A DNA stretch of 64,000 bases from Paenisporosarcina antarctica (lineage in GTDB: Bacteria > Bacillota > Bacilli > Bacillales_A > Planococcaceae): assembly GCF_004367585.1 (NCBI RefSeq), contig NZ_CP038015.1, forward strand, positions 2,486,001-2,550,000, written 5' to 3'. The notes beneath the pieces are model-generated. The model was not told the origin of the DNA and made no database searches. It saw only the letters and a program-made list of their open reading frames with translations. The position numbers and the translations under genes are program-made. Positions 34,369 to 38,445 of the stretch are shown here, one piece after another. Every line of letters begins with the position of its first letter. Within the stretch, counting starts at the first letter, position 1.

Positions 34369-34436
34369 AGTTTGTATTGACTAGTGTTTTCCGTATCGCT
34401 TTGGTCGCAAACCCACTGTTTCATAATCTAGAGAAA

Positions 34437-34473
34437 GAAAGAGAAGAGCGAAGGAACTTCGCTCTTCTCTTTC
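34437..34473 (+). terminator. Terminator of the malic enzyme gene
   Basis: 16-bp stem AAAGAGAAGAGCGAAG/CTTCGCTCTTCTCTTT with a 5-base loop, T-rich afterwards. A relative with the same GAGAAGAGC arms is at 37937-37968. Confidence 0.85.
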
Positions 34474-34609
34474 TTATTGTTTCATTTCAGTTGAAGAGTT
34501 TTCGCCAAAGAGTCATTCTAGTCTTTCTAAGATAAGCACAAAAAATCCAACACAATTAATTGAATAATAAGATTTATAAGTTCGTAGCTCCCCTTTGAAC
34601 TTTCCCAGC

Positions 34610-34750
34610 TTAGACTGGAGGATGTACGGGTACGCTAGTCGTTTCTTCATAAGCAACTTCATTTGTTTTTTCAGTTGCATAGTAATTATTATTCGCGAGT
34701 GAGGAAAAACTAATCATCATAATCAGTGCAAAATAAATGGTATTCTTCAT
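34610..34750 (-). CDS. Putative RRNPP signalling-peptide precursor (Phr/NprX/PapR-like)
   Basis: 46 residues. It starts MKNTIYFALIMMISFSSLAN, a secretion signal with hydrophobic core at 5-18, then a short acidic linker and the C-terminus ETTSVPVHPPV before TAA. The ATG is 12 bases after the receptor stop codon, and its ribosome site TGAGGAG includes that stop. Size, export signal and position directly behind an RRNPP receptor match NprX, PapR and Phr precursors, whose C-terminal 5-8 residues are the imported signal. Candidate mature forms lie within SVPVHPPV. No homologue is recalled. Confidence 0.75.
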   Translation of the reverse strand: MKNTIYFALIMMISFSSLANNNYYATEKTNEVAYEETTSVPVHPPV

Positions 34751-34762
34751 ATCAAACACTCC

Positions 34763-35980
34763 TCATAAAATGAATTTAACTGCTTTTTCGTACTTTCCTT
34801 CATTTTTAAAATGTTCTGCAAGCATTTTCGAAAAGTAATGATGGTATTCTTTTTGTTTATCCATCTTCACTATATACGGGACCACTTTATCTTCTAAAAA
34901 ACTCATGGCCTTTTGTTTTTGATTATTAAGTAGTAATAAATAAAACGATGAATAAAGCTGGTATTGTGGAACTCTCATTTTTACAGATTTTTCATTTAGT
35001 ATAGTAAAACTATTTTTACTTTCAATCCATTTTTCTAGCCTAAATTCAGTAAGGGCAATATTATGCAAACAAAGTAGATACTCTTCAGTGTCTTTATTAA
35101 AAATACTTGAGCTTTTTTTGAAGTAATCTAAAGCAATTAAGTAGTCACCCATCTTATGTCTTAAATCTCCAATATTGTGGTATATATGCGGAAGAAGTTC
35201 ATTCTCCTTAAGCATTTCAGAGTTTCTAATCAAATGCTCATAGCATACTAATGCCTCTTCATAAATCTTAGATTGCGAATAATTGATTGCTAGTGACATG
35301 TGAACATGCAAAATTCTTTTGTAATTGAATTGATCTTTATAAAATTCCATGGCCTTTTTACCGTAGTAAATAGCGTGACCTGATTGTTCCAAATATCCCT
35401 TTACGAGAGCAAGATGGTAATAGATTTCTCCTTCAAAAGTATTACTCACTGCGATTTCTTGAATAATTGTTGAAAGTTTCTCTTCTGCTTCTCCATATTC
35501 TCCCTTCAAAATTAATAATATAGCAGAGAAATATAAAAGTAAATATTGTTCATGTTGGGAAAAATTTTGCTTTTGTGTATTCAGCCATCTTATCTGGTCA
35601 CCAGCTAATTTTAAGTCTTTAATAAAAATGTAATATCTTAATTTATAAATTTCATACAAGTAAATATATTTAGTAAACGCTATAGTCTCCTTATAAAAAT
35701 CTAATTTAAGAAAGGTAATACATGCTTTCTCATGTTCAATATAATGGATATTTTTTATTATTTGTTCAAGTAATATATGTATATTGTGTTCACTTTCTTC
35801 GGCGTCTTGTACATTTATTTCTAGTCGATTTAATAAAAGTCTAATTGTTTCTACATTCGCTTCTTTGCTATTATTTTCTATTTTACTAAGATGTGTGATT
35901 GAACAAATTTCAATTGCAAGTTGGCTCTGTGTCATTTTCATTTTTGTTCGATGATACTTTATTAATGAGCCTATTTGCAT
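34763..35980 (-). CDS. RRNPP-family quorum-sensing regulator (NprR/PlcR-like, HTH plus TPR)
   Basis: 405 residues, close to NprR (about 420). An XRE helix-turn-helix occupies residues 5-58 (IGSLIKYHRTKMKMTQSQLA, then LSKIENNSKEANVETIRLLL), followed by a long all-helical region with TPR-like repeats (AIYYGKKAMEFYKDQF, ALVCYEHLIRNSEMLKE, ALDYFKKSSSIFNKD). Receptors of this kind bind a re-imported peptide and switch gene expression. Start behind AAGGTG. A peptide gene follows and a secreted protease gene is divergent upstream, as in nprR-nprX-nprA. Confidence 0.88.
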   Translation of the reverse strand: MQIGSLIKYHRTKMKMTQSQLAIEICSITHLSKIENNSKEANVETIRLLLNRLEINVQDAEESEHNIHILLEQIIKNIHYIEHEKACITFLKLDFYKETIAFTKYIYLYEIYKLRYYIFIKDLKLAGDQIRWLNTQKQNFSQHEQYLLLYFSAILLILKGEYGEAEEKLSTIIQEIAVSNTFEGEIYYHLALVKGYLEQSGHAIYYGKKAMEFYKDQFNYKRILHVHMSLAINYSQSKIYEEALVCYEHLIRNSEMLKENELLPHIYHNIGDLRHKMGDYLIALDYFKKSSSIFNKDTEEYLLCLHNIALTEFRLEKWIESKNSFTILNEKSVKMRVPQYQLYSSFYLLLLNNQKQKAMSFLEDKVVPYIVKMDKQKEYHHYFSKMLAEHFKNEGKYEKAVKFIL

Positions 35981-36164
35981 TTTTTCACCTTCTTACAAAA
36001 GATTTTAATTCTATTATAAACAATTTTTAGAGTATTCCAATATTTTAATGTATAAATCCTTCAAATTAGAGAGAGGAAATTTCTTTATATTATCACGAGA
36101 AGATTCAATTATTGCTTTTCATCTAATTTATTATACTATTTTTTTCATTTATTTTACTTAATTT

Positions 36165-36181
36165 AACTGAATTTTCCCAAT
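36165..36181. promoter_or_regulatory. 17-bp direct repeat, distal copy (candidate RRNPP box)
   Basis: AACTGAATTTTCCCAAT, identical to 36384-36400 and 219 bp away. It lies in the shared upstream region of the receptor gene and the protease gene. A weaker inverted match, ATTGGAAAATC, is at 36266-36276. Confidence 0.55.
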
Positions 36182-36383
36182 GAATAATTTGATTCGCTCT
36201 CTTCATTACTTTCTAACTAGATTAATATGAATGATAGTGTGATATATATCATGCAGATTGGATAAATTGGAAAATCGTCTTCTAATAAATATATGCACAC
36301 ATCCATATTAGTAAAGAAGTCATTACATTTGACTCATTCTTTCTACACAAAAATAGCAGATTTAATATATTCCGATATTAAAA

Positions 36384-36400
36384 AACTGAATTTTCCCAAT
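36384..36400. promoter_or_regulatory. 17-bp direct repeat, proximal copy (candidate RRNPP box)
   Basis: AACTGAATTTTCCCAAT, ending 69 bases before the protease start codon, a position where an activator could contact RNA polymerase. The repeat is too long to be chance in a 490-bp spacer. Confidence 0.6.
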
Positions 36401-36469
36401 AACGAAACTATCTATATATGCTAGATTTGTTTTAGAAACAAAAATACATTGACAAAAGGAGCACACACA

Positions 36470-37732
36470 ATGAAAAGATCGAGAAAAATCTTTATGAGTG
36501 TTTTATTAGCTGCTAGTCTAGCATTTCCTACTGTAGGTGCTAATGCAGAATCGACGAGTAATACTAGTGTCGAGAAATTCCGAGTTTATGTAGAAGCATC
36601 TAATCAATCAACAAAATCTGCACTGAAAGATCAATACAAGGTAAGATGGGAACTAACTGAAAATGGTTTCTCCACTGAAATGAATGATAAACAATTTACT
36701 GCACTGCAAAAAAACAAAAATATTACGGTAACTAAAGTACAGATAGTTACTCTTGATTCCGTAGTACGAGCAACTCAAAGTAAAATAGCTGCTGCTGAAT
36801 ATCCGACTCACCAAACACCATGGGGAATAAAAGCCATCTACAATAATAGTAACCAAACAACTACTTCTGGTGGACAAGGTATTAACATTGCTGTTCTTGA
36901 CACTGGCGTTAATGTTAACCATTATGATTTAGTCAATACTGTTGAACAATGTAAAGACTTCACTCGTGTCGTACAAATCACAAATGGTACTTGTAACGAT
37001 GCACACGGACATGGTACACATGTAGCGGGTTCTGCATTAGCTGATGGCGGAAGCGATGGTGCAGGAATTTATGGAGTTGCTCCTGCTTCAGACCTTTGGG
37101 CATATAAAGTACTTGGAGATAATGGATCAGGATATTCTGACGATATTGCTGCTGCAATTCGACATACAGCTGATCAAGCTACTTCTACTGGTACAAAAAC
37201 AGTAATCAACATGTCTCTTGGCTCTGCAGGCAATGACAGCTTAATTTCAAACGCAGTAACTTACGCTTATAACAAAGGTGTTCTAGTTGTAGCTGCTGCT
37301 GGTAACTCAGGTCCAAATCAAGGGTCAATTGGTTATCCGGGAGCACTTGTTAATGCAGTAGCTGTAGCAGCACTTGAAAATGTTCAGCAAAATGGCACGT
37401 ACCGTATTGCAGACTTTTCGTCTCGTGGATATGCTTCGACAGATGGTGATTACATCATTCAACAAGGTGATGTAGAAGTTTCAGCTCCTGGTGCAGCGAT
37501 CTACTCTACATGGAATAATGGTGGATATAATACGATTAGTGGTACATCTATGGCATCACCACACATTGCTGGATTAGCGTCAAAAATCTGGTCACAAAAT
37601 CCAAGCTGGACGAACGCTCAATTGCGCACAAACCTTCAAAACCGTGCAAAAACTTATGATATCAAAGGCGGATTTGGAGCGTCAACTGGTGATGATTACG
37701 CATCAGGGTTTGGATTTGCACGAGTGAATTAA
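36470..37732 (+). CDS. Secreted subtilisin-like serine protease (sphericase/S41 type)
   Basis: 420 residues from MKRSRKIFMSVLLAASLAFP, 9 bases after AAAGGAG. Signal peptide cut after ANA (residue 26), an inhibitor-I9 propeptide to about 105, then a subtilase catalytic domain: Asp144 (AVLDTGV), His181 (HGHGTHVAG), oxyanion Asn279 (AAAGNSG) and Ser360 (GTSMASPH). The sequence closely resembles sphericase of Lysinibacillus sphaericus and the cold-adapted Antarctic subtilisin S41, including two Cys around CKDF and GTCNDAHG. Probable target of the neighbouring RRNPP receptor. A strong terminator follows. Confidence 0.95.
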   Translation: MKRSRKIFMSVLLAASLAFPTVGANAESTSNTSVEKFRVYVEASNQSTKSALKDQYKVRWELTENGFSTEMNDKQFTALQKNKNITVTKVQIVTLDSVVRATQSKIAAAEYPTHQTPWGIKAIYNNSNQTTTSGGQGINIAVLDTGVNVNHYDLVNTVEQCKDFTRVVQITNGTCNDAHGHGTHVAGSALADGGSDGAGIYGVAPASDLWAYKVLGDNGSGYSDDIAAAIRHTADQATSTGTKTVINMSLGSAGNDSLISNAVTYAYNKGVLVVAAAGNSGPNQGSIGYPGALVNAVAVAALENVQQNGTYRIADFSSRGYASTDGDYIIQQGDVEVSAPGAAIYSTWNNGGYNTISGTSMASPHIAGLASKIWSQNPSWTNAQLRTNLQNRAKTYDIKGGFGASTGDDYASGFGFARVN

Positions 37733-37968: not shown

Positions 37969-38084
37969 CTAGTAGGCAATGAGTCTATCACTACCTAGCA
38001 ACTTATTCATATCACTAGCAATTTTTTAAATAATTTAAAAAGATTACTACATACATGTGAGGGTAATATTCTTGGGTTTCTGAC

Positions 38085-38280
38085 TTTAATCCCATTCATT
38101 TTGATTTAATCCCGTTCGCGAGATGTTTATTCCTGTTCAACTTGTGTTTATTCCCGTTCGCCCAATTTTTTCCACAAAAAACACCCCGAAATACACAGTG
38201 TGTAGGGGCCAAATTGGTTTGGTTTCCGCTGCGCTGCTGTTTTTTTTGAAGAAGTACAAACTGCGTTATGGAATGGTTCT
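38085..38280 (+). repeat. 21-bp array A2 with conserved tail
   Basis: Four units at 38085 (20 bp), 38105, 38126 and 38147 with core TTTAATCCCGTTCG or TTTATTCCTGTTC. A tail follows: CACCCCGAAATACACAGTG, TGTAGGGGCC, then TTGGTTTGGTTTCCGCTGCG, a hairpin-forming segment also found at 38369-38445 and in the 53980 block. No gene is present in 37785-39007. Confidence 0.85.
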
Positions 38281-38285
38281 GATGT

Positions 38286-38445
38286 TTTATTCCCATTCTT
38301 ATTGATTTAATCCCGTTCGCGAGATGTTTATTCCTGTTCGCAGTCGCTTAATTTCCGTTCGTCCAATTTCACCTTCAAAAATACCTCGAAACCAAAGTGT
38401 AGGGGGCTAATTGACTTGGTTTAGCTACGCTACTATTTGTTCCGT
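38286..38445 (+). repeat. 21-bp array A3 with conserved tail
   Basis: Four units at 38286 (20 bp), 38306, 38327 and 38348, then tail ACCTCGAAACCAAAGTGTAG and ACTTGGTTTAGCTACGCTAC. Units two and three match array A2 closely (TCCCGTTCGCGAGATG), so A2 and A3 are duplicates 201 bp apart. A further weak unit occurs at 38530. Confidence 0.85.

Follow-up and report, generated by a model that had tools for sequence, protein, structure and literature searches.

A proline-rich peptide gene behind an NprR-like receptor, divergent from a sphericase gene, in Paenisporosarcina antarctica: a candidate RRNPP signalling system

Gene content of the locus

The window considered here is a 64,000-nucleotide (nt) stretch of the Paenisporosarcina antarctica genome (contig NZ_CP038015.1, positions 2,486,001 to 2,550,000), and all positions refer to it unless a locus is named. 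It carries a gene for a receptor of the RRNPP type, a small gene for a peptide directly behind it and, divergent from both, a gene for a secreted subtilase (Table 1). The initial annotation, made from the letters of the DNA, had described a receptor with helix-turn-helix (HTH) and tetratricopeptide repeat (TPR) parts, a 46-residue peptide of exported type ending in SVPVHPPV and a divergent secreted subtilase, and all three are as described, the peptide gene starting 12 nt after the receptor stop codon.

The best solved relative of the subtilase is sphericase (1ea7, E 2.7e-154). The N-terminus of the peptide resembles a signal peptide, both on inspection and under a simple hydrophobicity rule, and its C-terminus presumably holds a pheromone, VPVHPPV or SVPVHPPV. 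A terminator-like hairpin sits between the peptide gene and a convergent malic enzyme gene.

Table 1. Features of the locus in the window, followed by related sites in other loci
Feature	Position	Strand	Basis or remark
Receptor gene, RRNPP type, cytoplasmic, 405 amino acids	34763..35980	-	Pfam HTH_3 and TPR_12
Propeptide gene, 46 amino acids, MKNTIYFALIMMISFSSLANNNYYATEKTNEVAYEETTSVPVHPPV	ATG at 34750, stop ends 34610	-	Sequence and open reading frame
Codons of last eight residues, SVPVHPPV, and stop: presumed mature signal	34610..34636	-	Repeats in relatives; exact ends inferred
AGGAG, ribosome-binding site of the peptide gene, abutting the receptor stop codon	34759..34763	-	Read from sequence
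Sphericase-type secreted subtilase gene, divergent	36470..37732	+	Pfam Peptidase_S8, 7.4e-49; sphericase 1ea7
Operator-like element TTTTCCCAATAA, 5' of sphericase	36391..36402	+	Sole exact 12-base match in window
Second copy of the element, TTTTCCCAATGA, receptor side	36172..36183	+	Reverse strand reads -35-like TTGGGA
Extended -10-like TATGCTAG of sphericase promoter, 14 nt past operator-like element	36417..36424	+	
Terminator-like hairpin, 19 pairs	34435..34475	listed on plus strand	Pattern scan
TTTTCCCAATNA sites at distant receptors	L110 5796-5807; L114 5504-5515; L115 5513-5524; L009 2977-2988		

Conservation of the small gene behind the receptor

Relatives came from a scan of named genomes (the best 80 of 109) and from 261 genomes of the bacterial family, 52 of which gave a receptor at a cut-off of E 1e-60; 30 of the family receptor matches and then 27 further stretches were sampled as loci. 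The clade was defined as distinct receptors at least 36% identical to that of the window or at least 38% identical to that of genus g8 (n = 98). Receptors with at least 170 nt beyond the stop codon were testable, which left 96 of the 98, L085 and L096 being too close to a contig end.

A small open reading frame (ORF) whose tail contains two adjacent prolines (PP) lies directly behind 94 of the 96 testable receptors (93 by a stricter core), counting any ORF at the right place with PP within its last 12 residues. Behind 33 other RRNPP-like receptors, used as controls, the same count was six, and four of these six (L106, L107, L112 and L113) form a sister group with a similar tail. The background frequency of PP tails was 421 in 10,178 ORFs, true peptides counted in. 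Absence of a conserved small gene behind the related receptors had been named beforehand as the finding that would speak against peptide signalling; the opposite was found. Among the testable receptors, no PP-tailed ORF was found behind those of L050 and L098. Psychrobacillus antarcticus (L050 and L165) has retained the receptor, while neither PP peptide nor sphericase was found; it is a possible eavesdropper, or its system may be decaying.

In the seven closest relatives the small ORF begins 12-19 nt behind the receptor, and tails include TVPIHPPV, TVAIRPPV, TIPIRPPVG, SIPIYPPVLL, YLPIHPPII, TIPILPPID and TIPILPPIG. Tails of the main group mostly follow P-[I/V]-x-P-P, where x is H, R, Y, L, Q, W, D or F, with A-I-R-P-P (L003) and T-I-P-P-P (L166) as exceptions. 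The g8 and g3 groups have the tail [V/I]-[L/M]-P-P, and the peptides of L143, L145 and L149 end in QVLPPL. As read by eye, conservation is confined to the end of the propeptide. The tail type also clusters on the receptor tree, with 28 label changes against a mean of 77.9 after shuffling (none of 200 shuffles as low), near-copies among the sequences favouring such clustering. The peptide gene is found behind the receptor in every layout; its position relative to the protease varies.

The repeated unit of the presumed signal

The tail unit is repeated three to four times in three propeptides, which marks it as the presumed signal: IPIHPPIG occurs three times in each of two Psychrobacillus propeptides (L038 and L039, with L137 a near-copy) and FPIHPPIL four times in that of L134 (genome G191). 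These repeats delimit a unit of seven to eight residues, to which VPVHPPV or SVPVHPPV would correspond in the window. It is a known trait of RRNPP propeptides to carry their mature peptide in repeats (PMC9765709; PMC11343458), and 17 of 17 unusually large NprR propeptides had repeats (PMC9765709). The signal had been called unusual at the outset, and the conserved proline-rich core, repeated in some propeptides and unlike the SSKPDIVG of NprX, bears this out. In L040-L047 (Lysinibacillus, Ureibacillus and Solibacillus) the whole propeptide has 28-31 residues and the unit follows immediately after the hydrophobic stretch, so export and cutting may differ in these short forms.

Association with sphericase and changes of layout

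Sphericase was sought in the 261 family genomes with a cut-off of E 1e-60, the lists being matched by hand, and was found in 88. It is present in 51 of the 52 receptor genomes, and in all 51 the two matches are 88-489 bp apart. The exception, G160, is Psychrobacillus antarcticus (L050), with neither sphericase nor PP peptide. Receptor and sphericase genes are divergent in relatives of the window; in g8, g3 and 19 of 46 loci of L054-L099 sphericase lies upstream on the same strand. The survival of adjacency across these layouts points to a functional link. The link between signalling and protease output, proposed at first from the window, is now supported by the 51 adjacent pairs and by a shared promoter element (see below).

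An operon of sphericase and receptor in loci of the L054-L099 type was considered and rejected, as hairpins are seen by eye between the genes in L062, L065 and L068. Two tandem sphericase genes occur in G033, each with a TTTTCCCAATNA element upstream (L033, 2745-2756 and 4353-4364). Sites of this form are also present in L110, L114, L115 and L009, where the receptor is more distant (30-31% identity) and is followed by a subtilase match (35-39%), with the site between the two (Table 1). The link of receptor and subtilase may predate the PP clade.

A DNA element and putative promoters

All 22 divergent intergenic regions inspected, and the window, contain TTATTGGGAAA (complement TTTCCCAATAA). 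The form TTTCCCAA is found 5' of sphericase in 70 of 71 loci: 29 of 29 divergent, 22 of 23 of g8/g3 type and 19 of 19 of L054-L099 type, for which the shuffled maxima were 4, 2 and 2, respectively. The search reached 480 nt, and in three divergent loci the element is more than 320 nt from the protease. The sole miss, L142, reads TTTCCCGA.

An extended -10 sequence of the strict form TA[TC]G.TA follows 14-15 nt past the element in 15 of the 29 divergent loci, the window included, and many of the others show variants outside the strict form, for example TGTGATAG. If this extended -10 reading holds, the element in the window would occupy about -43 to -32 of the sphericase promoter; by inspection, there is no TTGACA-like -35 at the element in the sphericase promoter of the window. 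On the opposite strand TTGGGA is followed after 17 nt by TATAAT in L002, and the minus strand of the window reads TTGGGA-18-TAAAAT (9 of 12), a possible receptor promoter, promoter-like sites being no commoner in the window stretch than in shuffles (15 versus 15.8). Since the element overlaps the -35 of this possible receptor promoter, receptor and peptide are probably autoregulated.

The placement of the element in L054-L099 follows that of sphericase: of the 26 loci lacking sphericase, 23 have it before the receptor, as do 2 of the 19 with sphericase upstream, and in those 19 it precedes sphericase. In an alignment of eight sequences, 31 of 57 columns are invariant in the HTH part and 72 of 348 elsewhere, as expected if a DNA site is shared. 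Because of this placement and of HTH conservation, the receptor is the likely binder of the element.

Sites of TTTTCCCAATNA form number 20 in the P. antarctica genome against 6 for the reversed control, under a further condition that excluded the site at 36391, and 15 of them fall at least partly within an ORF of 80 amino acids or more. The element with TGNTA occurs twice in this genome, at sphericase and within an ORF; this is a hint only, and the spacing range was too narrow for several relatives, so that the own-genome count alone was used. A wider regulon was also considered and rejected. Its best outside candidate, a gene for a secreted 5'-nucleotidase-like protein (L180), was unsupported in seven sequences from six other genomes, as neither TTTCCCAA nor its complement occurs within 490 nt upstream in any of the seven L180-related sequences (L188 has one at -493).

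Receptor fold and relation to NprR

The AlphaFold 2 (AF2) model of the receptor (mean predicted local distance difference test, pLDDT, 92.1) shows an HTH part (about residues 1-57) followed by nine helix pairs in a TPR-like superhelix; NprR has nine TPRs (PMC9765709). The best Foldseek matches are to NprR: 5dbk_A by E-value, and apo chain 5dbk_B with a template modelling (TM) score of 0.72/0.81. The best natural solved relative by sequence is also NprR (4gpk, E 4e-15; 4.7e-30 by profile), engineered TPR proteins scoring as well as 4gpk.

Functional positions of NprR named in PMC4970707 tell a different story, since only 1 of 14, E188, is identical in the receptor. Among the Spo0F-contact positions D107, Y118, E188 and Y223 this is 1 of 4 (as E183), and among the NprX-pocket and closure residues R126, Y165, W167, H201, N306, D309 and R343 it is 0 of 7, the mapping being by sequence alignment alone and less sure in repeats. 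The likeness to NprR proposed by the initial annotation therefore stands for the fold and fails for orthology by the tests applied. A quick tree built from 132 sequences places the PP receptors in a clade of 109 rows (support 91) with two halves (99 and 99), and a fragment of NprR falls outside it, on a long branch of unsure placement. Of the clade rows, 93 were labelled P-I-x-P-P or x-L-P-P; the remainder includes Shouchella without such a peptide, L014, L050, L085, L096, L098 and three mislabelled rows (L143, L145 and L149). Pfam PF18768 (RNPP_C) had no match in the P. antarctica genome, so it could not serve as a family test, and a plasmid search gave 12 records, all 24-30% identical. The best reading of these comparisons is an RRNPP receptor of a subfamily separate from NprR.

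Further receptor copies were seen beside or outside these loci. A second copy lies directly behind the peptide gene in L032 (5729-6940, G027) and in L031 (95-1306, G009). That of L032 matched TPR models and no HTH model, with no PP peptide seen close behind; it could titrate pheromone or act in the manner of Rap. P. antarctica itself encodes a further two RRNPP-like receptors, which lie in tandem (L035 3586-7001; G000:C1, about 920.6-924.0 kb), one of them followed by a 45-residue peptide with a different tail, TSTPGTFVTLSY. Paired receptor matches a few hundred bases apart also occur in G002, G004, G005, G006, G007 and G008.

Comparison with known systems

In the NprR-NprX system of the Bacillus cereus group the peptide gene also lies behind the receptor gene, and a secreted protease, the M4 protease NprA, is the neighbour. 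The locus in the window shares with it the HTH and TPR receptor, the peptide gene behind, the secreted protease neighbour and the fold. From the logic of nprR-nprX-nprA that was first proposed, the protease link is retained and the protease type is not, an S8 sphericase taking the place of an M4 enzyme. The signals differ too, being of VPVHPPV type here and SSKPDIVG in NprX (PMC4970707). NprR itself is an HTH and TPR receptor with its peptide as co-activator (PMC4970707). PlcR-PapR is similar in having a peptide-dependent HTH-TPR activator and a short peptide signal (PapR7 is ADLPFEF; PMC6568020), but the PlcR chain is shorter and the fold match weaker (3u3w, 280 residues, TMq 0.34). Rap-Phr shares the TPR superhelix and an exported propeptide, with repeated pheromones in some Phr propeptides (PMC11343458), whereas Rap lacks an HTH and exerts its effect on other proteins (PMC4970707) and its sequence match here is weaker.

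Surveys of such systems list 34 candidate RRNPP clusters, including 21 new subfamilies (PMC10075063), and 282 homologs of NprR from 21 genera (PMC9765709), and may already include some of these receptors, for example as an unnamed cluster. The main text of the former contains none of Planococcaceae, Planococc-, Caryophanaceae, Lysinibacillus, Solibacillus, Sporosarcina, protease or proline, and that of the latter none of Lysinibacillus, Planococcus, Solibacillus or proline. A different, leaderless peptide class is mentioned in Lysinibacillus sphaericus in PMC10518010. Among the matches listed in the open-licence literature, no system with this tail was described in these genera, and of the tail letters HPPV alone occurs, never concerning this system. 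That literature gave no paper joining NprR with Planococcaceae, RRNPP with Neobacillus or NprX with Lysinibacillus, and, by title, no sphericase paper on quorum sensing.

Proposed mechanism and its alternatives

After export, the 46-residue propeptide would be cleaved extracellularly, releasing VPVHPPV or SVPVHPPV as a short pheromone rich in proline. Re-import would be by an oligopeptide permease (the P. antarctica genome encodes five SBP_bac_5 proteins), and the peptide would then dock in the TPR groove of its receptor. In this peptide-bound state the receptor would bind TTTTCCCAATAA near the -35 of the sphericase promoter and activate it, and receptor and peptide would probably be autoregulated through the second copy of the element. 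With the tail as a signal of crowding, the cells would probably time the release of the enzyme. Sequence shows the genes, the conservation and repeats of the tail, the adjacency, the shared element with its spacing and the NprR-like predicted fold; from these we infer the sphericase promoter and start, processing, import, peptide binding, binding of the element by the receptor, and activation in preference to repression. The reading as a separate RRNPP subfamily, in which a proline-rich pheromone switches on the promoter of its own sphericase, is given a probability of roughly 0.78.

Several points weigh against this reading. The loci share ancestry, so their counts are non-independent trials. 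Of the 88 sphericase genomes, 37 have no receptor at E 1e-60 (23 of genus g8, 12 of g3, G007 and G019). Among five inspected, G136, G202 and G233 have a diverged receptor and PP peptide beside sphericase; in G019 no receptor occurs within the 7 kb examined, and the G007 contig stops 193 nt past the start of sphericase, its assembly having no receptor at E 1e-60. No sphericase was found within the examined stretch in 26 of the 46 loci of L054-L099, so it is not an obligatory partner, and in L098 a receptor is present without a PP peptide.

The element near the -35 of the presumed sphericase promoter would suit a repressor too, which also tells against activation, and its overlap with the -35 of the possible receptor promoter likewise fits a peptide-free receptor that represses sphericase until the peptide relieves it. 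This opposite sign is unlikely, as an extended -10 without a TTGACA-like -35 at the element is expected of an activated promoter and as NprR, by analogy, is activated by its peptide (PMC4970707). An ordinary NprR-NprX ortholog with a drifted peptide, whose peptide-free receptor would also block Spo0F, would explain the HTH with nine helix pairs and the fact that NprR is the best natural solved relative by both sequence and fold. It is improbable given that one of 14 NprR positions is identical and three of four Spo0F contacts differ, that the NprR fragment lies outside the clade (if on an unsure branch) and that tail and protease type are unlike NprX and NprA.

The small gene might instead code for a secreted peptide that inhibits or chaperones sphericase, or that is antimicrobial; the receptor would then be a plain regulator. 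The product of the small gene is of exported type, proline-rich and encoded beside a protease, and proline-rich peptides resist many proteases. Yet 24 of the 26 L054-L099 loci without sphericase in the examined stretch retain the PP peptide, it tracks the receptor and not the protease in all layouts, and conservation is limited, by eye, to the propeptide end, which some propeptides repeat, all of which make such a role very improbable. Activation of sphericase by a pheromone of a separate RRNPP subfamily is the preferred reading. A speculative and rather doubtful extension is that sphericase serves as both output and maturation enzyme: a protease-proof, proline-studded pheromone would survive this very broad protease and may be freed by it, giving a self-reinforcing switch across these genera.

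Elsewhere in the window, the intergenic region at 38060-38380 contains repeated phrases, read by eye, such as TTTATTCCCGTTCGC and TTTAATCCCGTTCGCGAGATG.

Implications

The locus offers one system with a proposed pheromone core, a receptor, a DNA element and an output, in Lysinibacillus, Psychrobacillus, Solibacillus, Paenisporosarcina, Chryseomicrobium, Neobacillus and other genera. The variable x in P-I-x-P-P has the look of a specificity code already in place, and the occurrence of one, three or four units per propeptide gives a natural dose series. The timing with which a costly secreted protease is released would become testable with a synthetic heptapeptide.

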